Shown: positions 6,035 through 36,645 of the stretch, in pieces | Layout of the letters: each line of letters begins with the position of its first letter | How positions within the stretch are numbered: the stretch's first letter is position 1 | DNA from: Falsiroseomonas frigidaquae | GTDB taxonomy: Bacteria; Pseudomonadota; Alphaproteobacteria; Acetobacterales; Acetobacteraceae | Reading direction: 5' to 3' | Length of the DNA stretch: 64,000 bases | Assembly (NCBI RefSeq): GCF_012163145.1 | Contig: NZ_JAAVTX010000007.1 | Span: forward strand, 421,656 to 485,655 | Notes under the pieces: generated by a model | The model's database searches: none | Seen by the model: the letters and a program-made list of their open reading frames with translations, nothing else | Told to the model about the DNA's origin: nothing | Program-made: the position numbers and the translations under genes

Positions 6035-7039
6035 TCAGCCGGCCACCGCGCCGGAGGCCTCGACCGCGCGGCGCCATTTCTCCAGCTCCCGCCGGTGGAT
6101 GGTGGCCGCCTGTTCGGGGGTTGCGCCGGTGACGGTGGCGCCGAGTTCCGCCAGCCGGGCCCGGATCGCCGGCTTGGCGAGCGAGACCTGCACCTCCGCC
6201 GACAGTTTCTCGATGATCGGGGCGGGCGTGCCGGCGGGGGCGAACAGCATCACCCAGGCCCCCGCGTCGAAGCCCGGGATGGTCTCCGCCACCGCCGGTA
6301 CATCCGGCATCAGGGCGGAGCGTTCGGCGCCGGTCACGGCGATGGCGCGCAGGCGGTTGTCGGCCAGGAAGGGCGGCAGGGTCAGGATTCCCTCGATGCA
6401 CATCTGCACGTCATTCGACAGGATCGCCTGCAGCGTGACCAGCCCGCCGCGATAGGGCACATGCGTCGCCGTCAGCCCGGTGGCCGCGCGCAGCATCTCC
6501 ATCGCCAGGTGGTTGGTGGCGCCGACGCCGGAGGAGGCATAGTTAAGCCGCCCGGGATTGGCCTTCGAATAGGCCACCAGCTCCGCCAGGGTGCGGACCG
6601 GCAGGCTGGGGGAGACGACCAGCACCTGCGGGAAGGTCACCATGTGGGTCACGGCGACGAAGTCCCGGCTGACGTCATAGGTCAGGTTGCGCATCAGCGC
6701 CGGCCCGATCGCCATATTGCCGGGGGAACCGACCAGGAAGGTCTCGCCATCCGGCCGGGCGCGGGCGGCGACCTCCGTGCCGATGCTGCCGCCGGCGCCG
6801 GTGCGGCTTTCCACCAAGAAGGGCTGGCCGAGGCGGGCCTGCAGATCCTGCGCCACCAGCCGCGCCACCACATCCACGGCGGATCCGGGGGTGAAGGGAA
6901 AGATGAAGCGCACGCCGGCGCGCGGCCAACCGCTCCGCCCTGCCGCCTGCTGCGCCTGGCCAGATCCGGGGGCCAGGCCCAGCGGCAGCGCCGCCGCCAG
7001 CGCCACCAACCCGCGTCGTCCGAGTGCGATCGCCGTCAT
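6035..7039 (-). CDS. Bug-family tripartite tricarboxylate transporter substrate-binding protein
   Basis: A 334-residue periplasmic binding protein. The Tat-like signal peptide contains LGRRGLVALAAALPLGLA and ends near GQAQQ. The family motif PFTPGSAVDVVAR (about residues 45-57) and the late PAGTPAPIIEKLSAEV segment are characteristic. GGAGGAACCG directly before the ATG at 7039 fixes the start. The gene abuts the downstream flavoprotein gene with no gap, which suggests that the flavoprotein metabolises the captured ligand. No TctA/TctB membrane genes are nearby, so the protein must share a distant permease or act as a sensor. Confidence 0.9.
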   Translation of the reverse strand: MTAIALGRRGLVALAAALPLGLAPGSGQAQQAAGRSGWPRAGVRFIFPFTPGSAVDVVARLVAQDLQARLGQPFLVESRTGAGGSIGTEVAARARPDGETFLVGSPGNMAIGPALMRNLTYDVSRDFVAVTHMVTFPQVLVVSPSLPVRTLAELVAYSKANPGRLNYASSGVGATNHLAMEMLRAATGLTATHVPYRGGLVTLQAILSNDVQMCIEGILTLPPFLADNRLRAIAVTGAERSALMPDVPAVAETIPGFDAGAWVMLFAPAGTPAPIIEKLSAEVQVSLAKPAIRARLAELGATVTGATPEQAATIHRRELEKWRRAVEASGAVAG

Positions 7040-7240
7040 CGGTTCCTCCTCCTGCCGCTGTGTCGCGGCTTGCCTGGACGGGAACGCTGCACCCTGCACC
7101 GCCGATTCCCAAGCACCCATTCAGCAAGGGCGCCTGCGCGGATCGCGATCGCCCGCAGTCACCTCCGCGAGAGCGCGCGCCATCCCGGCGCCGCTGCGGC
7201 GTTGCAGCCGCGGCAAGATTCCAGGACCCGACCGCCCCGC

Positions 7241-8134
7241 ATGAAGCTCCTCCTGCTCCACAACGAAACCGCCGGCGCGGGCGATGTCTCCGCCGAACGC
7301 CTCCAATCCGCCTTCCGCGCCGCCGGCTTCGAGGTGGCGTACCGCGCCCGCACCGCGGGCGGGCTGGCAAGGACCGATCTGCGCGACGCCGATGTGCTGG
7401 TCATTGCCGGCGGCGACGGCACCGTGGCGGGGGCGCTGCGCGACCATCGCGCCGATGTCGCGCGCTTCGCCATCGTGCCGCTCGGCACCGCCAACAACAT
7501 CGCCACGTCGCTCGGCATCGGCGGCTCCGTCGAGGCCATCGCCGCCGGGCTGCGGGATGCGCGGGCGCAGCCGGTCGATATCGGCGTGCTGCGCCGGGCA
7601 CAGGGCGCGGCCGAATTCGTCGAGGGCGTCGGCGCCGGCCCGATCGCGGCGGCGATGCACGCGGCGGATCGGGACGACGCGCCGGGCGAGACCAGCCGGC
7701 AGCGCTGCCTGCGGCTGATCCCGGACTACATCGCCCGCGCCCGGCCGCAGGACTGGGAGGTACGGGTGGATGGCGCGCCGCTGCCGGACGGGCTGCTGCT
7801 GGTGGAGGTGATGAACGGCCCGCTCGTCGGCCCCGGCCTGCAGCCGGCGGCACTCGCCGAACCGGGCGATGGCCTGCTCGATGTCGCCTTCCTGCGGCCG
7901 GAGGGACGTGACGCCCTGCTGCAGGCCGTGGCCCGCGGGGATGCGGAGGGTGGCATGCCGCGCCCGCTGCCGCTGGAGCATCTGCGCGGGCGCGAGGTGA
8001 CGCTGCGGCTGCGCGACACCACGCTGCGGATCGACGACGCATTCGAGCCGCTGCACGGCCCGCAGGACATCACGCTCTCGCTGGCGCCGCCGCCCATCCA
8101 CATCCTTGTGCCGCCCCATGCGAAAGGAGGCTGA
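7241..8134 (+). CDS. Diacylglycerol/lipid kinase family protein
   Basis: A 297-residue member of the DAGK/sphingosine-kinase/YegS fold, predicted cytosolic or membrane-associated, transferring phosphate from ATP to a lipid alcohol. The nucleotide-binding GGDGTVAGAL lies about residues 54-63 and the LGTANNIATSLGI segment at about 83-95. The C-terminal beta-sandwich is shorter than in YegS. The start is the ATG before KLLLLHNETAG, which matches the family N-terminus. The inositol-phosphatase-family gene begins one base after its stop, and that gene's Shine-Dalgarno (AAAGGAGG) lies inside this 3' end. The two genes form one operon. Confidence 0.85.
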   Translation: MKLLLLHNETAGAGDVSAERLQSAFRAAGFEVAYRARTAGGLARTDLRDADVLVIAGGDGTVAGALRDHRADVARFAIVPLGTANNIATSLGIGGSVEAIAAGLRDARAQPVDIGVLRRAQGAAEFVEGVGAGPIAAAMHAADRDDAPGETSRQRCLRLIPDYIARARPQDWEVRVDGAPLPDGLLLVEVMNGPLVGPGLQPAALAEPGDGLLDVAFLRPEGRDALLQAVARGDAEGGMPRPLPLEHLRGREVTLRLRDTTLRIDDAFEPLHGPQDITLSLAPPPIHILVPPHAKGG

Positions 8135-8135
8135 A

Positions 8136-8972
8136 ATGCCGGAACCCCAGCCCGACGCCGCCCTGCTCGAGGAGATGGAGCGTACCGCCGTCACGCTGGC
8201 CGACCTTGCCGGCGCCCGCATCGCGGCAGCGCTCGGCCAGGTGCTCAGCGTGCGCTACAAGCCCGGCGAGTCAGCGCACGCCTTCCGCGACCCGGTTTCC
8301 GAGGTGGATCAGGATGTCGAGAAGCTGATCCGCACGCTGGTCGGCGAGCGCTTCGTCGGGCACGACATCCTTGGCGAGGAAAGCGAGGAACGGCCCGGCC
8401 GCGGCCACGACATCGTCTGGGCGATCGACCCGATCGACGGCACCACCAATTTCGTCAACGGCTTTCCCCTGTTCGCCGCCTCCATCGGCGTGCTCTGGCG
8501 CGGCCGGCCGGTGGTCGGCGCGGTGTGGTGTTCCACGAGCCATGCGCTGCGGCCGGGCGTCTATCACGCGCGGGAAGGTGGCCGGCTGCGGTTCGACTCG
8601 CAGCCGCTGGAGCTGACGCCGAACCCGCAGGTGCGCCGTCGCCTGGCGGGCACCGGGGCACCGGACGACCCTTCCCGCCTGCCCTACGATCTGCGCCGCA
8701 CTGGTTCCGCCGCCGTGGAATGCGCCTTCCTCGCCGCCGGCTTGCTCGGTGTGTCCCGCTTTCAGACGCCGAATGTGTGGGATGTGGCCGGCGGCATCCC
8801 GCTGGTGCGGGCCGCCGGCGGCCAGGTGCTGGTGCGGGGCGAGGAAGACTGGGAAGCGTTCGACGGCTTCCTCGACCCCGCCGCCCCGCAGCGCGACCTG
8901 CGAAGCTGGAACCGCGCCGTGCTGCTCGGCGAGGCCGGCGCCATCGCGGCAATGCGTAGCGCCGGCTGGTAG
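8136..8972 (+). CDS. Inositol monophosphatase family protein
   Basis: A 278-residue Mg-dependent phosphatase of the IMPase/FBPase superfamily. Metal ligands are visible in LGEESEE (about residues 83-89), WAIDPIDGTTNF (about 97-108) and NVWDVAGG (about 214-221). Possible substrates include inositol-1-phosphate, histidinol phosphate, PAP or a sugar phosphate; the sequence does not decide between them. AAAGGAGG five nt before the ATG at 8136 sets the start, giving one base between this gene and the lipid-kinase-like gene. Its last codons are partly duplicated just downstream (8988-9022). Confidence 0.9.
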   Translation: MPEPQPDAALLEEMERTAVTLADLAGARIAAALGQVLSVRYKPGESAHAFRDPVSEVDQDVEKLIRTLVGERFVGHDILGEESEERPGRGHDIVWAIDPIDGTTNFVNGFPLFAASIGVLWRGRPVVGAVWCSTSHALRPGVYHAREGGRLRFDSQPLELTPNPQVRRRLAGTGAPDDPSRLPYDLRRTGSAAVECAFLAAGLLGVSRFQTPNVWDVAGGIPLVRAAGGQVLVRGEEDWEAFDGFLDPAAPQRDLRSWNRAVLLGEAGAIAAMRSAGW

Positions 8973-9022
8973 CTTCCCACACCGGCCCCATCGCCGCGAT
9001 GCGCAGCGCCGGCTGGTAGCTT
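8941..9022 (+). repeat. Partial tandem duplication of a gene end
   Basis: The final 35 bases of the phosphatase gene (8941-8975) recur 47 bp downstream (8988-9022) with about four differences, including the codons for MRSAGW and the TAG stop. The period of 47 is not a multiple of three. The second copy therefore lies outside any reading frame, in the short gap before the convergent cyclase gene. Confidence 0.8.
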
Positions 9023-9025
9023 GGT

Positions 9026-10012
9026 TCAGAACATCGCCGTCGGCGCCACCGTGCTGCCGCTGCCGCCTTCCACCTTCAGCGGCTGCATGGCGAAGGCGAA
9101 TTCCTTCCGCGGGCGCCGCACCAGCTCATCCAGCTTCAGATTCTCCAACAGGTGCACCCCATGCACCACCAGCGCCAGCTGGTGCACCGGCAGGGAGGCA
9201 TCGGGCATGGTCTTGGACGGCGCGCATTCCACCGGCCAGTTGTCGGCGCCCATCAGGATGGGGTTGCGCGAGATCAGCCATTCCGCCGCCGCCACGCCGA
9301 TGCCGGGGCAGCTGCGCACGTAGCGCGGATTGTCGCGGCCCCACAGCGTGCCCCAGCCGGTGTGGATCAGCACGGCATCGCCCTCCGCCAGCTGCAATTC
9401 CTGCCGGCGCAGCGCATCCTCCAGATCCGCCACGGTGATCTCGTAGTCATCGCCCAGCACCGGCACGCCCTTGGCGCCCGCCACGTCGATCAGCACGCCG
9501 CGGGTGAAGACGGTGCCGATGGTGTGCACGCCCATCTCGGTGAAGCCCGAGCGGCCTGAGATGCCCGGCAGGTCGACGCAGTTATAGACCTGGTCGCCGA
9601 TCGTCTGGTGCGGGAAGGCGTCGAGCTGGGTGCCGACCTGGCCGATCTCGGTGATGACGATCTCCTCGTTGGAGCCGCGCCGATTGGCCTGCGGGTTCAT
9701 GAAGGTGCGCTTGGTGTGCAGGTCGAAGCGCCTGGTGCCGAAGAAGGGCATGGTCGGCGACAGCACATGCCCCAGCTCCACCATCTCACCGCTGCGGATC
9801 AGCCCGGCGGCGGATTGCGCGCGTGCCGGCGTCATCAGGTTCATCGATCCGCGCCGGTCCGCCGCACCCCACCGGCTCGGGCAGCGCTGCCCCTCGGCGG
9901 GCGGCGACCAGCCCTGCTGGGCCTGCACCGGGGTTGCCGTCAGCCCCATATGACCGCCGCCACAGGCCAGGCACGCGGCCCCGAACAGGGCGCGCCGCGA
10001 GAGCTTCGTCAT
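9026..10012 (-). CDS. Tat-exported cyclase-family protein (kynurenine-formamidase-like fold)
   Basis: A 328-residue member of the cyclase family (polyketide cyclase/arylformamidase fold). The N-terminus has a twin-arginine signal (KLSRRALFGAACLACGGGH), so the enzyme should act in the periplasm. The family metal motif HxGTHxDxxxH appears as QVGTQLDAFPH (about residues 130-140): two His positions are replaced while the Asp and last His remain. Downstream AEGDAVLIHTGWGTLW is typical of the family. ATG 10012 is chosen over 10027 because it starts directly before the signal. The gene ends 3 bases after the duplicated phosphatase tail. The substrate is unknown. Confidence 0.82.
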   Translation of the reverse strand: MTKLSRRALFGAACLACGGGHMGLTATPVQAQQGWSPPAEGQRCPSRWGAADRRGSMNLMTPARAQSAAGLIRSGEMVELGHVLSPTMPFFGTRRFDLHTKRTFMNPQANRRGSNEEIVITEIGQVGTQLDAFPHQTIGDQVYNCVDLPGISGRSGFTEMGVHTIGTVFTRGVLIDVAGAKGVPVLGDDYEITVADLEDALRRQELQLAEGDAVLIHTGWGTLWGRDNPRYVRSCPGIGVAAAEWLISRNPILMGADNWPVECAPSKTMPDASLPVHQLALVVHGVHLLENLKLDELVRRPRKEFAFAMQPLKVEGGSGSTVAPTAMF

Positions 10013-10092
10013 GTCGTTCCATCCCATCTGCCAAGGCCCGCCGTTCCGGCCGGTGCCGCGCGAAGGCTAACGGGTGGCGGGACGATCCGCGA

Positions 10093-12381
10093 TCAAACCG
10101 GCGGCACCGGCGCGTCGCCATGGGCGCGGATGCGCTCCAGCGGCACGGTGATCCGGCAGACCAGGCCGCCCTCCGCCCAGCACCGCTGCACGGTGCCGCC
10201 GAGCTGGTGTTCCACCGTCGTCGCCACGAGGCGGGAGCCGAAGCCGCGGCGCGTCGGCGGGCCGGCCACCGCCGGGCCGCCCCGCTCCCGCCATTCCAGC
10301 CGCAACACCTCGGTTCCGCGTTCCACCTCCCAGGTGACGCTGAGGCGGCCTTCCGGCGTGGACAGGGCGCCGTGCTTGGCCGCATTCGTCGCCAGCTCAT
10401 GCAGCGTCATGGACAGCGCCTGCACCGCCTCCGGCGCCAAGGCGAGATCCGGCCCATCCAGCGTGATTCGGGCGGTTCCGCTGCGGGCAACCGGGTGGAA
10501 CACCGAAAGCTCCGCCTCCGCCACCACACGCAGCGCCGCGCTCTGCCAGCGCCCCTCGGCCAGCGCGGTGTGCGCGCGGGCCAGGGCGGCGACGCGGCCT
10601 TCCACCGCCCGCGCGAAGGCGGCGGCATCGTGGCGCGGCGTCAGCCGCAGCGCGGCCTGCACCACGGCCAGCGCGTTCTTGGCGCGGTGGTCCACCTCCC
10701 GCGCCATCAGCCGCTGGCGCGCCTCGGCGGCGCGTTCCTGCGTCACGTCGCGCGACACGCCGACCAGCAGCAGCGGGCGGCCGGTCCGCAGGTCGCGGTC
10801 GGCCACGACGGCATGCGATTCGATCACCTGCCAGGGCAGGTCGTCCGCGGTGCGGATGCGGTACTCGATCTGGTAGCCAAGCCGGCGCCCTGCCGTGACC
10901 TCCGCCACCACCTGCTGCACGGCGTCACGGTCCTCCGGATGGACACGTTCCGTCCAGACATGCAGCGGCAGGTCCGTCACCGGCAGCCTCGGCCCCTCCG
11001 GCACGGCGCGGCCGGAACGGGTGACGGTGCCGCGCGTCAGGTCCATCGCGAAGGTGCCGAGGCGGCCGGCCGCGGTGGCCAGCCGCAGCCGCCGCTCCGC
11101 CGTCGCGGTCTGGCGCTGCGCCGCGCGCAGGTCCTCAATGTCACGGAACGCCACGATCACGCCGCCGCCCGCGCGCGGGTAGATGTCCACCTCGATCCAA
11201 TGGCCGATGACGGGCGAGACGACGCAGAGATGCGTCTCCCGCCGCTCCGCCATCGCCTCGAGCTGTGCCTGGAAGGAGAGGCTGCCGGCGGCCTTCGGGA
11301 ACAGATCGAGGAAGGGCTGGCCGAGCAGATCCTCATCCGCGCGGCCCCAGACCTCCAGCGCCCGCCGGCTGACGAAGGCGAAGCGCAGGTCGGCGTCCAG
11401 CGCGTAGATCACCTCCCGCATGCTGGCCAGCACCTCAGCCTGCTGGCGCCCGGCCTGCAGATGCGAGGCCTCGCCCTCCTCGATCTTGCGGGCGAGCGCC
11501 TGGTTGGCAACGGCCAGCGCCCGGTCGCGGCGGCGCATCGTCACGGCAAGGAACAGCAGGGCCAGCGCGGCCGGGCTGCCGAAGGCCAGGTTGACCAGCG
11601 TCGCATCCCGCCACTGCGCCAGGATCGCGGCGCGCGGCCGGGTCGCCGTGACGAAGGCGGGCCAGCCCTGCACCGCCCGGCGCTCCTCCAGCGCGCCCGA
11701 ATCCGAGGCCTCGGCCGGACGGGACCGGGCGAGCATTTCCCCGTCCTGGCGCCACAGCGCGATCACGTCACCCGATCCGGCCCGCCCCAGCCTGTCCAGG
11801 CCATCATCCAGGGCGTCGCGCCGCATCGTGGCGAGGATCAGGCCGCCGCCCTCGCCCGGCGACCGGTCGCTGCCGGAAGCCTCGCGTCGGCGGGTCACCA
11901 TGATGCGCGGCTCCGGCCCCTGCGGCGTCTCAACCTGGCCGAGCCGCAGCGGCGGTGCCTCCAGCCCCGGGCTGGCCGGGGCGTCGGCGCCCTCGTCGTT
12001 CAGCAGGGGGCGGTTTTCGGCGCCATGCACGGAAAGATGGATGGTTGCCGGCGCCTGCCGTCGAGTCGCCAGCTCCCGCAGCGCCGCGCGCAGCGCCACC
12101 CCCTCCGCCGTGATCTCGGCATCGGACAGGCCTGCGACCAGAAGGTTCGCCAGATCCGTCCGCAGCAGCATGCCGTCGAGGACGCGCTGCACATGCTCGG
12201 CGGAGGTCGCGGCGCTACGCGAAAGCTCCCGCTCCGCATCCTTCCAGGCCTCCCGCCAGCTCGCGGCGCCACAGGCGCCGAAGGCCAGCACCGGCCATCC
12301 GATCGCGGCCAGCAGCAATAGCCGCGTCATCAGTCGGGACGCCCCGGCCGGGTCGCCCACCCCATCCCGGCGCCTCACCAT
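10093..12381 (-). CDS. HWE-family membrane sensor histidine kinase with two PAS domains
   Basis: A 762-residue sensor kinase. Transmembrane segments at about 20-36 and 270-287 flank a periplasmic sensing region. Two PAS domains follow (about 310-430 and 440-560, the second ending GVSRDVTQERAAEARQ). The phospho-acceptor block is MAREVDHRAKNALAVVQ (about 565-581). The ATPase domain has LHELATNAAKHGAL and LEWRERGGP, whose W-x-E signature marks the HWE family common in alphaproteobacteria. There is no receiver domain and no response regulator beside it, so it is an orphan. The start is uncertain: ATG 12381 as given, or ATG 12330 just before the first membrane helix. Confidence 0.88.
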   Translation of the reverse strand: MVRRRDGVGDPAGASRLMTRLLLLAAIGWPVLAFGACGAASWREAWKDAERELSRSAATSAEHVQRVLDGMLLRTDLANLLVAGLSDAEITAEGVALRAALRELATRRQAPATIHLSVHGAENRPLLNDEGADAPASPGLEAPPLRLGQVETPQGPEPRIMVTRRREASGSDRSPGEGGGLILATMRRDALDDGLDRLGRAGSGDVIALWRQDGEMLARSRPAEASDSGALEERRAVQGWPAFVTATRPRAAILAQWRDATLVNLAFGSPAALALLFLAVTMRRRDRALAVANQALARKIEEGEASHLQAGRQQAEVLASMREVIYALDADLRFAFVSRRALEVWGRADEDLLGQPFLDLFPKAAGSLSFQAQLEAMAERRETHLCVVSPVIGHWIEVDIYPRAGGGVIVAFRDIEDLRAAQRQTATAERRLRLATAAGRLGTFAMDLTRGTVTRSGRAVPEGPRLPVTDLPLHVWTERVHPEDRDAVQQVVAEVTAGRRLGYQIEYRIRTADDLPWQVIESHAVVADRDLRTGRPLLLVGVSRDVTQERAAEARQRLMAREVDHRAKNALAVVQAALRLTPRHDAAAFARAVEGRVAALARAHTALAEGRWQSAALRVVAEAELSVFHPVARSGTARITLDGPDLALAPEAVQALSMTLHELATNAAKHGALSTPEGRLSVTWEVERGTEVLRLEWRERGGPAVAGPPTRRGFGSRLVATTVEHQLGGTVQRCWAEGGLVCRITVPLERIRAHGDAPVPPV

Positions 12382-14707: not shown

Positions 14708-17700
14708 TCAGGCGATGATCGCGATCTCCGACCCGGCCCAGGCGACCGGGTTCAGGAAGTCCGTCACGATCTGGCGGGCGCCGTCGCCGGTGCCGTCGGC
14801 ATCCCACCAGAGGCGGTTGGCATCGGTCTCGAAGACGAACTGGCCGAAGGCGCCGCTCGCCTGGCCGGTCGTGTTCTCGACGTAGCGGCCGCTGGCCACC
14901 ACATCCATCCCGGCCACCAGGCCACCCCCGAAGCCGGCGGCGGAGATTTCCACCGTATCGGCCGCGGTGAAGTCCTCGATCCGGTCACCGGCCTCGACGG
15001 CCAGGTTGAAACGGAAGATGTCGGCGCCCGTGCCGCCCAGCAGGCGGTCGCGCCCGGCGCCGCCTTCCAGCGTATCGTCGCCGCCCATGCCGCGCAGCAC
15101 GTCGTTGCTGCCCATGCCCAGCAGCACATCGCCGCCGGCGGAGCCGGTCATGCGGTTGCTGCCCGCGCTGCCCGTGCCGGTCAGGCCGGCGGCGGTCAGC
15201 ACCAGGTCCTCGACAGTCTCCGACAGGGTGAAGGACACGGAGGCCAGGACGCGGTCGGCGCCCTGGCCGGCCAGTTCCACCACCACGTCGCCGGCATCAT
15301 CCACCAGGAAGGTGTCGTCGCCGAAGCCGCCCAGCATGCTGTCGGCGCCGAGGCCGCCATTCAGCGTGTCGTTGCCCTCGCCACCCAGCAGCGTATCCGC
15401 GCCGGCACCGCCGAGCACCGCATCGTCGCCGCCCGCGCCATCCAGCACATCATTGCCGCCAAGGCCGAGCACCACGTCATTGGCGCTGGTCGCCACGATG
15501 CTGTCGTCCTGGCCGGTGCCGACCGCCTCAAAGACCAGCATGTCGCGGCGGCCGTCATGCTCCACCGCCGCTTCAGTGGTGGTCTCGCCGCCGCTGGTGC
15601 GGGTGAAGCTCGGCGCGGCGAATTCCTCCGGCGCCTCGACCAGCGAGGTCACCTTCACATCGTCGAAGGCGAGGCCGGCATTGCCCCAGGAATACAGCCC
15701 CACCGTGCCCTGCATCAGCGACCGGTCCTCGACCGCATAGGCGAAGATCTCCTCGCCATCGATGAAGGCGCTCATCTTCTGGTCGATGATCTCGAAGCGC
15801 AGGTGGAAGGTCTCGCCCGGCGTGTAGCGCTGCGGCACCTGGGCCAGGATCTCCTCCACCCCGTCGCGCATGCGGATCAGGTTGAACAGCGGGCCGGCGC
15901 CGTTGCTCGGGTTGCGGTCATAGGTGCCGTCCGCATCCAGCTCCAGCTTGTAGTAGTTCTTGGCGTCCTTGTAGTGGATCAGGAAGCCGAGCCCGTCATT
16001 GTCCGGCGTGACGATACTGGCCTCGATGGCGTAGTCGGTCCATTCGGACGCGCCCTCGCCCTGGTACAGCGCGTAGGTGCCGAGCCGCAGCACGTTCACG
16101 CCATCGCCCAGCGGCGACCAGCCATTCAGCCACTTGTCCGGGTTGGATGCGCCATCCCATTCCAGCTGGCGGGACTGCAGGTCCGAACGCTGCACCAGCT
16201 TGCCATCCTCGATCGCCCAGTCGGACTGCTTCCCATCCGGGCCGAGGCCGCCCATCTCGCCCTCATCCACGATCACCCAGTCGGTCGGGATATTCGCGCC
16301 GGAGAAGCTCTCGCTCACCAGCACCGGGCCTTCCGGCGCGGCCACCGGCGCCTCCGGCTGCAGCGGCGCATAGGCATCGACGGTGATGTTGTCGAATTGC
16401 GAGGAGCGCTGGTTGTTGGAGTAGAGGCCGACCGTGCCGCCGGTGAGCGGCGTGGCATCCACCACCTCGCCGCCGAACAGCAGCTGGCCGTCCAGCATCG
16501 CGGTGATGCGGCCATCCTGGATGCCGACCGCGAGTTCCTGGTCCACGTTGAAGCGCGTGCCGCCGGTCTCCGTCGCCAGCACCGTCTCCACGCCTTCCGC
16601 CACGCGGATCAGGCTGCGCGTGTTGGTCTCGCCATCCAGCACCAGGCGGTAGTGGTTGTCCGCGTCCTGCCAGTAGAAGACCAGGCCGATGCCGTCATTG
16701 TCGGTGGAGCGGATGGTCGCCGCCAGGGTGTAGTCCTTCCAGCCCAGCGCGGCCTCCGCCTTCCACAGCAGCACGTTGTCGGCGCTGTCGGACATCTCGA
16801 AGACCCGGCCTTCCGGCGCCGGGTCGCCGGCCTGCGGCGTGCCGGGCGCGAAGACCGTGCCCTTCAGCAGGAAGTTGCTGGCGGTCTCGCCCGTCTGGCC
16901 GAAGCTCAGCGTCGCCGGGCCGAAGCTCGGCGCCAGCGTCGGCTCGTTGAAGTCGAACTGCGCGGAGAGCGCCGTCGGCGCGGTGGCCTCGATGCCGCCG
17001 GCCTTGGCGCCGCCGAGCGCCGTCATCTCGGCGTCCGTATAGACCTTCTCGGTGACCAGCACGGAGGAGACGTAGAGGTTGGAGGTCTCGCCATCCTCAT
17101 CCGTGAACAGGCTGGCGCCGGCGCCGACATCGAGGCTGAAGCGCGCGGCGGAGACGGTCTGCTCGCCGACCTTCACGCCCTCGATGTACTTGCTCATCAG
17201 CAGCGTGTCAGCGCCGTTCGGCGTGAAGGTGAAGCCAACGCGCTGCCAGGTGTCGTAGGCGAAGCTGCCCTGGTAGTTGCCGCCGATGCCGATGCCGCCG
17301 GTGCCGTCGCCGCCCATGCGGATGAACAGGTCGCCGTCATCCACATTGTTCGGGTTGAGCTGGACCAGCGCGGCCCAGTTGCCCTGGCCGGAGGGCACCA
17401 GGATGTCCATGATCAGCGACCAGGTCGGCACAAGCGTGCCGATCTCCTGGCCCAGATTCGGCTGCAGCAGCAGGCCCTGATTCGGCGCCAGCTTGGGGAT
17501 GTAGCCCACGCTCTCCGCGCCGCCGGGCAGCGCCGCGATGCCGAAGCTCTCCGGCGTGCCCGTCTCGATCAGCGTGGCGGAGGCGCCGGGGCGGTCCCAG
17601 CCCTCCATGTTGCCGTCGTTGAAGTTGTCGGTCAGCAGATTGCCCGGTCCGGCAACGAGGACCAGCTTCTCATCCGTGGTGACGCGGCCTTCCGCATCCG

Positions 17701-19921
17701 TGACGGCCAGCGTGAGGTGGTGGCGACCGGCGCCGAGCTGGATCTCCGCCACCTCGCCGCGCGCGATCGCATTGCCCTCGGCATCGTACCAGATGTGGGA
17801 GACGACATTGTCGGCCGGGTCCAGCGTGCGGCTGGCATCGAGCGTGACATTGGCCAGGCCGCGCAGGTTCGGCGCGGAGACGAACAGGTCGTCGCCCGCC
17901 TTGGCCTGTGCGCGCAGTTCCGGCGTGCCGACATCGATGTCGGTGAACACCTCCTCATGGCCGCGATACGGGCCGGTCAGGCCGTCGCGGTCCATCTCCT
18001 CCTTGGTGCGGTAGCCGTCGAGGTAGTCGTCGAATTCGGTGAAGTAGGTCTCGGTGGAGATGCGGTCATTGTCCGGGTCGATGACGACCAGGCGCATCGC
18101 GCCATTGCCGCCGCGGCCGCCGAGGGATTCATCGCCATTTCCGGTGATCTCGCGGGCGATGCCGTTCTGGTAGTTCACCAGGCTTTCGAAGATGGCGTTG
18201 CCGTGCTGGCTGTAGCTGACATTGGTCTCCGCGCCATCGCCGAAGATGTGGCCGGAGAAGGTGAAAGTGATGTTCGGATACTTTGCCAGCAGCTCGCGAT
18301 ACACCGTCTCGCCGTCATTGGCGCCTTCCGGGTCGCGGCCGATGCCGTAGTCATAGCCCGCACCCTCGTCATACAGCGGGCCGCCGGCCGGGTCGTGGCG
18401 GCTGGCATAGTCGGTGAGCGAGTGGGAAACGAGGATGACGCGGTGGTCGAGATGCGCGTCCAGCACTTCGCCGGCCCAGCGCAACACGTCGTCGCGCGGC
18501 CCGAACTCCATCGACAGCACCAGCCACTTCGTGCCGTCCGTCGCGGTGAAGGTGTTGTAGTTGTTCACCGCGCGATCCGGCTCGCGGTCATAGACGCCGC
18601 CGAAGGTCCCGGGGTTGGAAGCCGCCTGGCGATCCGGGGAGAAGTAGGTGTCGAGGCCGGAGGTGTGGTCGCTGGCGCTGCCACCGGGACCCTGGTCGTG
18701 ATTGCCCGGCAGCACGGAGTAGGGGATGATTCCGTCCAGCTGCGACAGCGCCGCATCCACCACCGTCCATTCGGTCGGCAGGTTGTTCTGCGTGATGTCG
18801 CCGACATGGGCGACGAAGTTGATGTTGTGGCTGCCCTTGTTGGCGACCAGCCAGCTCGTCATGTCCATGAACATCTGCGGCGTGCCATTGGTCAGGCTCG
18901 CGTCGGAATAGTCCTGCGTGTCCGGCAGCACGGCCACGGTATAGGCGTTGGGGCCGGCGACGCGAACGCGGAAATTGTCGTGCGCGACATTGCCCTCGGA
19001 ATCCGTCGCCGTCAGGCGCAGGTCGGCATGGCCGAGCGCGCCGAGGTCGAGCGTCAGCGTCTCCCCATCCAGCACCGCGCCGGTGACCACGCTGTCATCG
19101 TCATTGCCGATGCTGAAGGTGACGTCGTCGCGGTTGAACACCTCGGACAGGTCGATGGTGACGGTGGAGCCAGGGGTCTTCATCACGTCGCTGATGCGGT
19201 TCACCACCTGCAGCTCCGGTGCCGGCGGCGGGTCCGTGTCGCCCGGCGCGGCCAGGGTCCCGGCGCCGTAGGTGGCGGCGAAGCTGCCCGCCTCGAAGTC
19301 GAACTGCGTGGCGCCGGCGGAGACCGCGGTGGCGGAGATGCCGTCGGCATCCGCCCCGCCCAGGGCCGCCACTTCCTCCGCCGTCAGCGCGCGTTCCGCC
19401 ACCATGACGGAGGAGATCGCGCCGGCATTCGTCTCGCCATCCTCATCGGCCAGCAGCAGGGCGCCGCCGACATCACTGATGTCCCAGCGCGTGCCGGACA
19501 GGGTCTGCGTCCCCACCAACGCGCCGTCGATATACTTGTCCAGCACCAGGCCGCCCGGCGTCGTCTCCGCCGTGACCACCACGCGGTGCCAGGCATTGAA
19601 GGTGAAGTCGCCCTCATAGGTGCCGGAGATGCCGATGCCGCCGCCGGCCGGGCTGGTGGCACGGACGAACAGCTCGCCATCGCTGGCATTGGTCGTGTCG
19701 GTCTGCAGCAGCGCCGTGAAGGCGCCGGTCGGCGTCGGCAGCAGGATGTCGAGCGCCAGGGTCCATTCGGTCAGCGTGCCATCGGCATCGCCGGCATTCG
19801 GCTGCAGCAGCAGCGCCTCATCCACCGTGAAGGCGGAGAATTTCAGCACACCGGATTCGCCACCGGCGAGCGCCGGCAGGCCGAGGCCGGACGATGTTCC
19901 AAACTGCACGAAGTCGGACAT
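14708..19921 (-). CDS. Large secreted mosaic: LamG-like modules, calcineurin-type phosphoesterase, RTX repeats
   Basis: A 1737-residue predicted type I-secreted protein. Order: a LamG-like beta-sandwich (about 1-205); an Ig-like linker; a metallophosphoesterase core with LPDTQDY (about 335), HVGDITQN (about 375), LPGNHDQG (about 408), LVSHSLTD and FSGHIFGDG (about 559), all ligand motifs intact; a PKD-like stretch; a second LamG-like module (about 800-970); two more carbohydrate-binding-like sandwiches ending GTVGLYSNN and GTVGLYSWGN; then two blocks of GGxGxD nonapeptides (about 1480-1550 and 1597-1645). No N-terminal signal is present, as expected for RTX export. The ATG before SDFVQFGTSSG is preferred. 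No secretion ABC genes are nearby. It may release phosphate from an extracellular polymer. Confidence 0.88.
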   Translation of the reverse strand: MSDFVQFGTSSGLGLPALAGGESGVLKFSAFTVDEALLLQPNAGDADGTLTEWTLALDILLPTPTGAFTALLQTDTTNASDGELFVRATSPAGGGIGISGTYEGDFTFNAWHRVVVTAETTPGGLVLDKYIDGALVGTQTLSGTRWDISDVGGALLLADEDGETNAGAISSVMVAERALTAEEVAALGGADADGISATAVSAGATQFDFEAGSFAATYGAGTLAAPGDTDPPPAPELQVVNRISDVMKTPGSTVTIDLSEVFNRDDVTFSIGNDDDSVVTGAVLDGETLTLDLGALGHADLRLTATDSEGNVAHDNFRVRVAGPNAYTVAVLPDTQDYSDASLTNGTPQMFMDMTSWLVANKGSHNINFVAHVGDITQNNLPTEWTVVDAALSQLDGIIPYSVLPGNHDQGPGGSASDHTSGLDTYFSPDRQAASNPGTFGGVYDREPDRAVNNYNTFTATDGTKWLVLSMEFGPRDDVLRWAGEVLDAHLDHRVILVSHSLTDYASRHDPAGGPLYDEGAGYDYGIGRDPEGANDGETVYRELLAKYPNITFTFSGHIFGDGAETNVSYSQHGNAIFESLVNYQNGIAREITGNGDESLGGRGGNGAMRLVVIDPDNDRISTETYFTEFDDYLDGYRTKEEMDRDGLTGPYRGHEEVFTDIDVGTPELRAQAKAGDDLFVSAPNLRGLANVTLDASRTLDPADNVVSHIWYDAEGNAIARGEVAEIQLGAGRHHLTLAVTDAEGRVTTDEKLVLVAGPGNLLTDNFNDGNMEGWDRPGASATLIETGTPESFGIAALPGGAESVGYIPKLAPNQGLLLQPNLGQEIGTLVPTWSLIMDILVPSGQGNWAALVQLNPNNVDDGDLFIRMGGDGTGGIGIGGNYQGSFAYDTWQRVGFTFTPNGADTLLMSKYIEGVKVGEQTVSAARFSLDVGAGASLFTDEDGETSNLYVSSVLVTEKVYTDAEMTALGGAKAGGIEATAPTALSAQFDFNEPTLAPSFGPATLSFGQTGETASNFLLKGTVFAPGTPQAGDPAPEGRVFEMSDSADNVLLWKAEAALGWKDYTLAATIRSTDNDGIGLVFYWQDADNHYRLVLDGETNTRSLIRVAEGVETVLATETGGTRFNVDQELAVGIQDGRITAMLDGQLLFGGEVVDATPLTGGTVGLYSNNQRSSQFDNITVDAYAPLQPEAPVAAPEGPVLVSESFSGANIPTDWVIVDEGEMGGLGPDGKQSDWAIEDGKLVQRSDLQSRQLEWDGASNPDKWLNGWSPLGDGVNVLRLGTYALYQGEGASEWTDYAIEASIVTPDNDGLGFLIHYKDAKNYYKLELDADGTYDRNPSNGAGPLFNLIRMRDGVEEILAQVPQRYTPGETFHLRFEIIDQKMSAFIDGEEIFAYAVEDRSLMQGTVGLYSWGNAGLAFDDVKVTSLVEAPEEFAAPSFTRTSGGETTTEAAVEHDGRRDMLVFEAVGTGQDDSIVATSANDVVLGLGGNDVLDGAGGDDAVLGGAGADTLLGGEGNDTLNGGLGADSMLGGFGDDTFLVDDAGDVVVELAGQGADRVLASVSFTLSETVEDLVLTAAGLTGTGSAGSNRMTGSAGGDVLLGMGSNDVLRGMGGDDTLEGGAGRDRLLGGTGADIFRFNLAVEAGDRIEDFTAADTVEISAAGFGGGLVAGMDVVASGRYVENTTGQASGAFGQFVFETDANRLWWDADGTGDGARQIVTDFLNPVAWAGSEIAIIA

Positions 19922-20040
19922 TCGGAGAGGACCCTGTCTTGGGAGAGGGGCGCACACTCCGGCCGAACCGTGTCACGACTTGTAGCGGTTCTGTTAAGCT
20001 CCGGTGTCGAATTGGGCAGCGGTTAATTCGGGAACGGTCG

Positions 20041-33519: not shown

Positions 33520-36500
33520 TCATGAGGGTCTGTTCTGCGGCTTGTCCGCCTTGGGCTCGCCCAGACGGACCGCCTTCGCCTCCAGCAGCGCCGCCCGCAA
33601 CAGGTTGAGGAACACCTGCTGCCCCTGGGCCCGGCGCATCAGCCAACGCAGCATGGGCTGGCGTCCCGCCACGCCGCGCTGCGCCTGGCGAAGGTTTCGG
33701 ATCTGCGGTTTTGCCAACAGCGCCGTCAGCTTCTCACCACTGCCGTCCCTGCGGGATGCCGTCGCCACCTTCAGCTCATCGAGCGACGCCCGCATCTTTC
33801 CCATGAAGGATCCGAAGTTCCTGGTCTCGTTCCAGTAGCGGAGGCTTTTCGAGCGCGTCCGCTCGCGATGCAACTGCACCACCGCATCGGGGAGCGAGAT
33901 CTGCCGCATGTGCCTCGCGCGCATGGCAGGAACGGGAATTGCGGAGAAATAATCCGCCAGCCAGGCCCGGAACTTCGCCGCATTCTGCCTGTGATTGAAA
34001 CCGCCACTCTGCGATTCGACGACACGGGCGACGGGAACCTCCTCGAGGACAAGCTCTCCTGCTGCGATCCCGGACCGGATAATCGTTTCCGCTAGCGCGC
34101 TCCGCGTCAACACGACGCTGTTGCCCATTCCGTCCGACTTGTATTTCGGCAGCCAGGCATCTCCCAGGGAAATGTCAGCCAGTTCCGTCAGGACGTCGGT
34201 GCAGAAATCGCAGGCCTTTGCCTTGAAGAGCCCGGTTCCCCACATGTCGCCCACGCGCCGCATCTTGACCTGCCGCAGCCTGGATTCCTCATCCAGCGCA
34301 GCAAATGAATAATCTCCGGCCGAGCTTCCGGCATCCTTCACCCGGTATTCGGGGTTAGTATAGGCGCCTTCGATTCCGGCACTCTGCGCCAGAAAATCGG
34401 TGTACCAGCGATTCTTGAGGCCGCCGCAGATGATGCCCACAAGGAATGGAATTTTTTCCTTGAGTTCCGGATTGTAATGCTGCTTAAGTCGAATTGCCTT
34501 GATGAAACACGCCACGCCGGACACGGCCACGCGGCCTTCGGTCTGCTCGATGACGGAGAACAGCTTCTCCATCGTCACGGGAAAGTAGCGCGTCTTTGAA
34601 ATCTTCTGGATGTTGTCGGCATTGTCGACGACCTGGTACTGATAGCCACTGCCACCATCGCTGCGCACCACGAACAGGTAGTCGACCTCGCGCTGCTCCA
34701 GCACCTTCTTCAACACATAGGTGGCGATGCCGCCCGATGAGGAAGTCGGCCGGAATTCCCTGCTGTAGCCAATATAGGCGTTTTCGAACCGCCCTGCCCT
34801 GGCGTCGATGTTCCTGGCGGCGGGCAGGAACATCCTGCCCAGGGCGTCCTCGTCCTCGACCTCCTTTTCCGGTCGCGGATTGAAGGGACAGACCTTGACG
34901 GCCTCGGCTGGAACGGTGCCGGAGGTCGCCCGCGGTACCAGGAACCCGTCCTCGCTCCAGGCCATCTTGAGGGTGCCGCGCGATTCGGAAACACAGACGC
35001 CGCATCCCGTGCAGAGAACGTTCAGCGGGTGCCTCTGGCTTGGCTCCGCTGCCGTATCGAGCCCAGCCCCTGCCACAGGCGCCGCACCGGCAACCGTGCT
35101 CCGCGACGGGGCTGTTCCACGCGTATCACCGTCATCCGACAGCGCCGATTTCAGGAACTGGAGGGAGGCCGTACGCAGCTTTGCCAGCCGCTCGTTCACG
35201 ATCCGCCAATCGACAGGTCGCGTTATTTTCTCGATATCGACTTCATCAGCCGCGCCAACAAGACGGTCCTCCAACCCGAACATCTTCAGGAGGGAGGTGA
35301 ACCGCGCCATGCCGCGGCTCGGATTGCCGTAGGCGATGAACGGCTTGTTGAAAAGGATCGAGAAAGCCACGCCGTGAAAGGAATCCGTGACCACGAAGGC
35401 AGCGCCATGGAAGGCCGCAAGCCAGCCCTGGACTGATCTGTCGCCCCCGGCCTTTCCCGATGTCGCCTCGCCGCCAACGGGAAGTCCATTGGTGTAATAC
35501 GCACTTATCGAAAGCCTTCGCGCCAGCGCCTCGGTAACCTGCGCCTTGTCGTCGTTGCCATCCAGAATATAGGTCAGCAGACGATCACCGCCGGAGGGCT
35601 GCGGCCTGGCTGAAAACAGACGCGAATATTGCCCGGGCTCCAGCAGCAGCGTCGGATCAAGGACGTGTTGCGCATCCACGCCGAGATGGTCCCGGGCCAG
35701 CGCAACGCCGCTGTCTTCCCGGACCGAGACAGCCGCGAACCGCCCGATAAGGCGCCGCGCCTCGGCCGTCTGCCGGCCGTCGAATTCCCAGTTTGGCGCG
35801 CCGAAGGACGCCGCGTAGCTGATCCGCCTGGTCCTGTGGTCATCCTCCGGCAGGAAGCCCAGGAAGAAATCGGACAGGATCGACTTCGCGTATTTCGGGC
35901 GCCAGACCTGGTCGCTTCCGACGATGATCGCGTCCAGCTCATACCGGCCGATGGTCCGGCGCAGATCGGAGGACGAATCGAAACGCCGCGACAGCGGCGC
36001 GACATGCTTTTCAATGAAGGGCGCGTGCAGCGTCGCCTTGCCCATCGCGATCGATTTCGAGATCAGCGGCAGATCCGCATCGGTTTCGGCCGTCGCGGCG
36101 GGATCGGCAGCGCCAGGCTGCGGATGCCGGCGGTTCAGCAGCACAGGCTCGTGGCCGAGCTGCCGCAGCACCTGCATCATCGCATAGGCCTGTAGGTTGC
36201 CGCCGAAATTGGTGTTCAGCGGCAGGGTCAGGACGCCGACCTTTTTCGAGCCCGGGTGCCGCTCCGCTGCCGTGGCGGCGCCCGCCTGAACCTGCGCCGC
36301 GGCTGGTGCCGGCCTGTCCAGATGGCTGTCGATGGCTTCGATAAGCTGGAGCGTCTTGGCTTCCAGCATCCCGAGCGCCGCATCCAGCGCCACGCCGGAT
36401 GCCAGGTGGTCCTTGCCGCCAGGGCTGGCGGTGACCTGGAAGCGGGATTTATGCGCCCGGCGGACGATGTCGAGCGAAACCAGGCCTTCCGGGGACGGCG

Positions 36501-36645
36501 TTATGTTGAAACCAAAACGGACATCGCGGTAGGAGAAATCCACAACCGAGCACAGATCGTTATACACCCATTTCCTTGCGACATGCCGGTCGAGTCCACG
36601 CGCTGCCAGCACGGGCACGAGTGCATCCGATATGTCCTTGAACAT
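33520..36645 (-). CDS. Fusion of polysaccharide pyruvyl transferase and F420-hydrogenase-beta-like Fe-S module
   Basis: A 1041-residue protein of four parts. An unassigned alpha/beta domain (about 1-115) begins MFKDISDALVPVLAARGLD. A WcaK-like pyruvyl transferase (about 133-500) shows VGVLTLPLNTNFGGNLQAYA, DAIIVGSDQVWRP, ISYAASFGAPN and VVTDSFHGVAFSILFNKP. A ferredoxin-like CTGCGVC with a later CPFNP (about 550-600) leads into an FrhB/FdhB-like region (about 625-900) with TSSSGGIATYVLKK, GIICGGLKNRW and KACDFCTDVLTELADISLGD. A basic tail ends the protein. CGGAG precedes the ATG. Base composition is visibly less GC-rich than the surroundings and the gene stands alone, both suggesting transfer. 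Possible role: redox-linked modification of a surface polysaccharide. Confidence 0.88.
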   Translation of the reverse strand: MFKDISDALVPVLAARGLDRHVARKWVYNDLCSVVDFSYRDVRFGFNITPSPEGLVSLDIVRRAHKSRFQVTASPGGKDHLASGVALDAALGMLEAKTLQLIEAIDSHLDRPAPAAAQVQAGAATAAERHPGSKKVGVLTLPLNTNFGGNLQAYAMMQVLRQLGHEPVLLNRRHPQPGAADPAATAETDADLPLISKSIAMGKATLHAPFIEKHVAPLSRRFDSSSDLRRTIGRYELDAIIVGSDQVWRPKYAKSILSDFFLGFLPEDDHRTRRISYAASFGAPNWEFDGRQTAEARRLIGRFAAVSVREDSGVALARDHLGVDAQHVLDPTLLLEPGQYSRLFSARPQPSGGDRLLTYILDGNDDKAQVTEALARRLSISAYYTNGLPVGGEATSGKAGGDRSVQGWLAAFHGAAFVVTDSFHGVAFSILFNKPFIAYGNPSRGMARFTSLLKMFGLEDRLVGAADEVDIEKITRPVDWRIVNERLAKLRTASLQFLKSALSDDGDTRGTAPSRSTVAGAAPVAGAGLDTAAEPSQRHPLNVLCTGCGVCVSESRGTLKMAWSEDGFLVPRATSGTVPAEAVKVCPFNPRPEKEVEDEDALGRMFLPAARNIDARAGRFENAYIGYSREFRPTSSSGGIATYVLKKVLEQREVDYLFVVRSDGGSGYQYQVVDNADNIQKISKTRYFPVTMEKLFSVIEQTEGRVAVSGVACFIKAIRLKQHYNPELKEKIPFLVGIICGGLKNRWYTDFLAQSAGIEGAYTNPEYRVKDAGSSAGDYSFAALDEESRLRQVKMRRVGDMWGTGLFKAKACDFCTDVLTELADISLGDAWLPKYKSDGMGNSVVLTRSALAETIIRSGIAAGELVLEEVPVARVVESQSGGFNHRQNAAKFRAWLADYFSAIPVPAMRARHMRQISLPDAVVQLHRERTRSKSLRYWNETRNFGSFMGKMRASLDELKVATASRRDGSGEKLTALLAKPQIRNLRQAQRGVAGRQPMLRWLMRRAQGQQVFLNLLRAALLEAKAVRLGEPKADKPQNRPS

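Follow-up and report, generated by a model that had tools for sequence, protein, structure and literature searches.

The redox-linked pyruvyl transferase of the window

The window analysed here, a stretch of 64,000 nucleotides from Falsiroseomonas frigidaquae, carries on its minus strand a gene in which a polysaccharide pyruvyl transferase (PT) is joined to an iron-sulphur (Fe-S) FrhB-like module (Table 1). The reading frame begins with ATG and runs through 1041 codons without an internal stop. Three Pfam families were detected above their curated cut-offs: PS_pyruv_trans (PF04230; residues 146-441, E = 6.8e-30, 105.4 bits against 25.3), FrhB_FdhB_N (PF04422; residues 624-695, 1.5e-9, 38.3 bits against 22) and FrhB_FdhB_C (PF04432; residues 705-870, 4e-22, 79.2 bits against 23.3). 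The four motifs on which a first-pass annotation of this DNA had based the same fusion were located at residues 545 (CTGCGVC), 586 (CPFNP), 737 (GIICGG) and 812 (CDFC), which, together with the Pfam matches, confirms that both modules lie in one frame.

Table 1. Domains and segments of the fused gene, with coordinates in the window
Feature	Coordinates	Strand	Evidence
Whole gene: N-domain, PT, ferredoxin-like segment, FrhB-like module and C-terminal tail, 1041 aa	33520..36645	-	ORF, Pfam, full-length relative at 52.8%
N-terminal alpha/beta domain (N-domain), residues 1-115	36301..36645	-	
PT domain, residues 133-505	35131..36249	-	PF04230 at 6.8e-30; GSDQ 243, YAASFG 277, SVRE 307, SFHG 422; 38% over 384 columns to the O124/O164 PT
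Linker, residues 506-539, Ala/Gly/Pro-rich	35029..35130	-	Sequence; GC 0.716
Ferredoxin-like [4Fe-4S] segment, residues 540-600, Cys 545, 548, 551, 586	34846..35028	-	Each Cys in 33/33 rows covering the segment
FrhB/FdhB-like flavin and second Fe-S module, residues 624-870, Cys 713, 740, 812, 815	34036..34776	-	PF04422 and PF04432; each Cys in 33/33 rows; 52% over 427 columns to WP_000236767.1
C-terminal tail, residues 901-1041, and stop	33520..33945	-	Sequence; alignment with the E. coli protein reaches residue 966

All eight cysteines listed in Table 1 are invariant, each being present in 33/33 of the aligned rows that cover it, and those at 545, 548, 551 and 586 form the CxxCxxC...CP ligand pattern of a [4Fe-4S] ferredoxin domain. 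The motif residues of the PT domain are also kept (Asp of GSDQ in 30/30 rows, Arg of SVRE in 31/31 and His424 of SFHG in 30/32). The protein missed the equivalog cut-off of TIGR03289, the F420-reducing hydrogenase beta subunit FrhB (34 versus 331.5 bits), and neither MurA nor MurB families were among its Pfam matches up to E = 1.

In comparisons with known structures, the profile of the FrhB module (A1) matched 8riu_B, an F420 hydrogenase/dehydrogenase beta protein (5.4e-23), FrhB itself (3zfs; 1.9e-10) and, weakly, 7-hydroxymethyl chlorophyll a reductase, HCAR (5dqr; 0.011); the FrhB structures and HCAR differ from the window module in their substrates. For the PT profile, the top-ranking structure was the yeast pyruvyl transferase 5ax7, again a weak match (0.031). 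The N-domain had been described as an extra domain without assignment, and the Pfam scan of the window protein indeed gave no family for residues 1-115; its predicted model is confident (pLDDT 91.5), and a fold comparison yielded no clear relative.

Distribution of the fusion and linkage of FrhB modules to PTs

The best single relative of the window protein is QEW23941.1, encoded on a plasmid of Marinibacterium anthonyi, which shows 52.8% identity over residues 1-1039 and likewise contains, over its full length, the PT and both FrhB domains. Unlike the window gene, its gene is plasmid-borne and flanked by glycosyltransferase and UDP-glucose dehydrogenase genes; the protein is annotated as an F420-reducing hydrogenase beta subunit only.

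A profile of 11 FrhB modules identified 320 confirmed relatives in genomes taken one per species, and the top 80 were retained. A PT was fused to the FrhB module in 10 of these 80 (one of them, L043, with a partial PT only), was located within 300 bp in 55, within 3 kb in 4 and farther away in 3, while the remaining 8 gave no match to the PT profile. A Pfam scan nevertheless revealed an adjoining PF04230 gene at five of these eight (L079, L091, L092, L110 and L072, the flank of the last being read on the same contig under the handle G176). Genes of another PF04230 subfamily adjoin FrhB in two additional genomes, G710 (L175) and G555 (L177). Sinorhizobium meliloti 1021 carries a distant FrhB and PT pair on pSymB, which is annotated in strain R28. 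In this sense the protein is not an orphan, as had been supposed, and a frameshift or assembly join between its halves, named in the first-pass annotation as a possible refutation, is ruled out by the recurrence of the PT-FrhB fusion in 10/80 relatives.

Fused members were found in Bordetella, a metagenome-assembled genome of the Zoogloeaceae, Methylopila, Paracoccus, Ruegeria and other Rhodobacterales. In three of the fused chains (approx. 1540 aa) a GT2/GT92-type glycosyltransferase precedes the PT and FrhB parts, and in one a hexapeptide-repeat domain follows FrhB. The fused genes of Bordetella and P. onubensis are flanked by glycosyltransferase or alginate lyase genes; at two fused loci (L046 and L047) there were no glycan genes among the flanks scanned. 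In G811 the PT and FrhB share one frame and are parted by a single TGA, an arrangement that plausibly represents the step before fusion, though in a distant group.

In L043 of Paracoccus shandongensis (6501-10491) a glycosyltransferase-like frame runs into a different segment, PT-like by eye, and stops, and the partial PT-FrhB fusion follows; this looks like the replacement of a PT by recombination.

Open reading frames with at least four RTX nonapeptide motifs were present at 5/14 loci with a fused PT and at 0/70 unfused loci among the 80 retained relatives. They lie downstream of the fusion in L041, L043, L044 and L067 and upstream of a PT-nitroreductase fusion in L033, three of the five being in related Paracoccus. 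The fused enzymes may serve glycans of secreted RTX proteins.

Exchange of the redox partner beside the PT

The subfamily to which the PT of the window belongs was delimited with a profile of 10 redox-linked PTs, which is narrow by construction and misses some FrhB-linked PTs too. This profile gave no match at E <= 1e-3, in all frames, in the wcaK region of E. coli K-12 or in 20 sampled PF04230 stretches of Pseudomonadota; when the 20 sampled PTs were scored singly, the best value was 0.0013 and one other reached 0.0024. At E <= 1e-15, members of the subfamily were found in 7/398 genomes: three have FrhB fused or adjacent, three have a nitroreductase within 0.6 kb and one, G815, has neither on its contig piece. 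Within the 5 kb fetched around the 20 sampled PF04230 genes we found no such FrhB and two nitroreductases. A redox partner hence accompanies 6/7 subfamily PTs versus 2/20 sampled PTs (Fisher p = 0.0006), a value to be read with caution, most of the seven having been rows of the search profile.

A tree of 91 PT rows placed 12 FrhB fusions, one nitroreductase fusion and one stand-alone PT in a single group (SH-aLRT 99). The nitroreductase fusion, from Paracoccus alcaliphilus, combines N-domain, PT and nitroreductase in one protein, and forms a three-row group (SH-aLRT 100) with the N-domain, PT and FrhB chain of P. onubensis and an N-domain and PT protein of P. liaowanqingii. An enterobacterial group of the tree mixes FrhB and nitroreductase partners, and parsimony over the 91 rows required seven changes of partner.

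The exchange is visible at the level of gene order as well. A Klebsiella aerogenes plasmid has the order lipopolysaccharide (LPS)-biosynthesis protein, FrhB, PT, glycosyltransferase, and an E. coli plasmid has LPS-biosynthesis protein, nitroreductase, PT, glycosyltransferase, with the nitroreductase in the slot that FrhB occupies in Klebsiella aerogenes. Both kinds occur together on one E. coli plasmid, where the nitroreductase is annotated as a short piece. Since unrelated flavoenzymes replace each other beside one PT, the simplest explanation is that they have a common task, the reduction of the PT product.

The E. coli plasmids p30COLEC-2 and pBDSF8-3_3 (L034 and L122) are small plasmids with surface-polysaccharide cassettes that contain a PT and a nitroreductase or FrhB near insertion sequences.

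Surface sugars associated with related genes

A gene cluster of E. coli, with the label 'O124/O164 family' on its wzx, contains genes for an FrhB (WP_000236767.1, named coenzyme F420 hydrogenase beta) and a PT (WP_000861297.1) related to the corresponding parts of the window protein (Table 1). The FrhB has the same eight cysteines as the window module, judged by eye. In contrast to the window protein, the pair consists of separate genes, FrhB then PT, lies inside an O-antigen cluster and lacks the N-domain. The pair (at least 80% covered) was detected in 5/5426 E. coli genomes, all five of which carry the O124/O164 wzx label. No characterised function was found for it.

We take the O124/O164 O antigen to carry a lactic acid ether of glucose, 4-O-(1-carboxyethyl)glucose, and the Shigella sugar described next is presumably that of S. 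dysenteriae type 3, which we assume to be identical with O124, with O164 being alike. PMC10609480 reports 4-O-[(R)-1-carboxyethyl]-D-glucose for Shigella dysenteriae. According to PMC8466920, Salinivibrio has 4-O-(1-carboxyethyl)mannose (Man4Lac), and a similar tetrasaccharide in Raoultella terrigena, S. dysenteriae 10 and E. coli K50 carries a 4,6-linked pyruvate on the mannose. Ketal and lactyl versions of one repeat therefore exist.

Capsule types of Klebsiella provide a second comparison. In the accessible part of PMC6856556, a table titled as covering 79 K-antigens gives O-lac for K22, K37 and K66 and for no other row. The 'O-lactose' of its text is read here as lactate, because the sugar of K22 is 4-O-[(S)-1-carboxyethyl]-D-glucuronic acid, as given in a reference title in PMC3857182; in that article the K22 and K37 loci are described as alike except for one frameshift. 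PT genes without pyruvylation are listed for K8, K22, K37 and K66 in the available text of PMC4616057, which counts two nitroreductases and one coenzyme F420 hydrogenase over all the surveyed loci. The K8 row of PMC6856556 lists pyruvylated galactose, versus the absence of pyruvylation reported for K8 in PMC4616057.

The K22/K37 and K66 loci thus resemble the system proposed below in having a PT without a ketal, an O-lac sugar and, among the surveyed loci, flavoenzymes; the comparison is one of gene counts. These are compatible with K22/K37 holding the two nitroreductases and K66 the F420 hydrogenase.

Genomic setting in the host

The first-pass annotation had placed the gene in isolation and in an AT-richer stretch, and both observations hold. 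The neighbouring genes that were scanned are catabolic and encode a 2-hydroxyacid dehydrogenase, an alpha/beta hydrolase, an M20 peptidase, a RidA-type protein, a TctC receptor and a luciferase-like monooxygenase. Over 3 kb, the GC content of the window is lowest (0.624 versus a window mean of 0.705) in a stretch that begins at approx. 33,900, inside the gene. The gene as a whole has a GC content of 0.629 and a third-position value (GC3) of 0.770, versus GC3 of 0.855-0.915 in the four neighbours measured.

A search of 396 genomes of the order, which include 11 others of the genus, did not detect it in any of those 11, and at the family level 3/200 genomes match, the host's own included. The gene thus likely arrived by horizontal transfer. 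The host genome has two more PF04230 genes, on another contig.

Two further features were recorded. A second FrhB_FdhB_C protein of 416 aa is encoded in the host genome (G000:C18:26961-27371; L181) and is matched weakly by the PT-linked FrhB profile (37 bits). In the window, positions 14708-19957 (-) hold a 1749-aa open reading frame with laminin-G, calcineurin-like phosphoesterase and RTX repeats, which sits in another, shallower GC dip.

Proposed function and alternatives

We consider that the window protein is probably a one-chain lactyl-ether synthase for surface glycans. The PT domain would move the enolpyruvyl group of phosphoenolpyruvate to a single sugar hydroxyl, giving an enolpyruvyl ether and no cyclic ketal, and the FrhB-like module would then add two electrons and protons, converting the enol ether into a 1-carboxyethyl (lactic acid) ether. 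From its family and cysteine pattern, the module would be expected to use flavin adenine dinucleotide and two [4Fe-4S] clusters, and fusion would let a single polypeptide retain the enol ether between its two sites. The O124/O164 pair and the Klebsiella types with otherwise unexplained PT genes both point to a lactyl ether as the putative product. The earlier suggestion of a redox-dependent surface-sugar enzyme is thus probably right, while ketal transfer, its other half, is probably not the net reaction.

The net chemistry would be that of MurA and MurB, which transfer enolpyruvyl to UDP-GlcNAc and then reduce the product to UDP-MurNAc: phosphoenolpyruvate and a hydroxyl, followed by reduction to a 1-carboxyethyl ether. 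The protein families are unrelated, however, and a flavin/Fe-S reductase stands here in place of MurB, an NADPH flavoenzyme.

Ferredoxin or flavodoxin, rather than F420, is the suggested electron source, because the protein has its own ferredoxin-like segment, the host genome (97.9% complete) gave no match at E <= 0.001 to F420 ligase (PF01996, a single marker), and E. coli, which has the same pair, is said in PMC8571402 not to produce F420. As the host lacks an F420 ligase match, the 'F420' of the family name should not be taken to denote the cofactor.

Several observations weigh against the proposed lactyl-ether synthase. Its activity and both catalytic steps are predictions from homology, linkage and sugar structures. 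The structure of the E. coli O124/O164 antigen itself was not found in the literature that could be searched, and the Klebsiella redox genes are given, in what was accessible of the source, as counts over all loci, so that their assignment to types is drawn from those counts. Linkage is incomplete in both directions: no PT was found in the flanks tested of L085, L094 and L104 (3/80 FrhB relatives), the subfamily PT of G815 has no redox partner on its contig piece, and the N-domain and PT protein of P. liaowanqingii stands alone, without a redox module. The redox link is moreover not confined to the PT subfamily of the window, FrhB or a nitroreductase being found beside other PF04230 subfamilies too (nitroreductases at L153 2565-4961 (+) and L161 3943-4917 (+), one of which ends a 799-aa protein), so the subfamily alone is not diagnostic of the product. 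The ferredoxin-like segment has no Fer4 match of its own in the window protein at E up to 1, and that of the O124/O164 relative scores 16.4 bits, below the 21.1 cut-off. Finally, the neighbours of the gene that were scanned are catabolic, which leaves it without a visible acceptor glycan.

Among the alternatives, an ordinary pyruvate ketal made by the PT, with the FrhB-like module performing a separate redox step on the same glycan (e.g. on the sugar ring) and the fusion co-localising two decorations, would agree with the conserved Asp, Arg and His of the PT and with the fact that, to our knowledge, PF04230 members of known product are ketal transferases, such as WcaK of colanic acid. We regard it as unlikely, since unrelated flavoenzymes are exchanged while the PT stays, and since K22, K37 and K66 have PT genes and no ketal (PMC4616057) and are the three O-lac types (PMC6856556), as far as the accessible parts of these sources show. 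The Fe-S/flavin module might also gate the PT, as a redox switch or as a scaffold, without acting on its product; such a role could account for the presence of both modules in one chain, and oxygen-sensitive clusters can act as sensors. This is highly improbable given that all eight cysteines are kept and that a nitroreductase, from a family without such clusters, replaces the module, a swap which a sensor role would not explain.

We attach a very small probability to the module opening reductively a ketal made by the PT, in which case the intermediate would be the ketal and not the enol ether; we know of no precedent for flavoprotein cleavage of a ketal by reduction, whereas enol ether reduction has one in MurB. 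This route would be in keeping with the similar tetrasaccharides that bear either a 4,6-ketal or a 4-lactyl ether in PMC8466920. Just as improbable is a horizontally acquired relic lacking a glycan partner in its host: the gene is isolated, low in GC and not detected in the 11 other genomes of the genus that were searched, but its 1041-codon frame is open, all eight cysteines and the PT motifs are intact, and some relatives are likewise apart from glycan genes in the regions scanned.

If the protein does synthesise a lactyl ether, further possibilities arise. The configuration of the ether may depend on the reductase, FrhB giving (R), as in the Shigella/O124-type glucose, and nitroreductase giving (S), as in K22, a suggestion built on two points with presumed or deduced assignments. 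In the Paracoccus chain of glycosyltransferase, PT and FrhB, transfer, enolpyruvylation and reduction would all fall to a single polypeptide, whose target would perhaps be the glycans of the RTX proteins encoded alongside. It is conceivable, though we hold it at somewhat less than even, that this is a second, independently evolved chemistry of the MurA/MurB type, in which some PF04230 proteins are enolpyruvyl and not ketal transferases that have recruited at least two unrelated flavoenzymes, the Fe-S FrhB-like module or a nitroreductase, to form lactyl ethers.

Various bacteria have lactic acid ethers in their O antigens, capsules and exopolysaccharides. We found no enzymes of these sugars named in the literature that could be searched, and no earlier proposal of a lactyl-ether role for the O124 or Klebsiella genes in the literature accessible to us. 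If the reading proposed here is true, a lactyl ether would become predictable from genome sequence, and in surface-polysaccharide loci the annotations 'pyruvyl transferase' and 'F420 hydrogenase' would need correction. It would also mean that the chemistry of muramic acid has had more than one origin, in different families of proteins.

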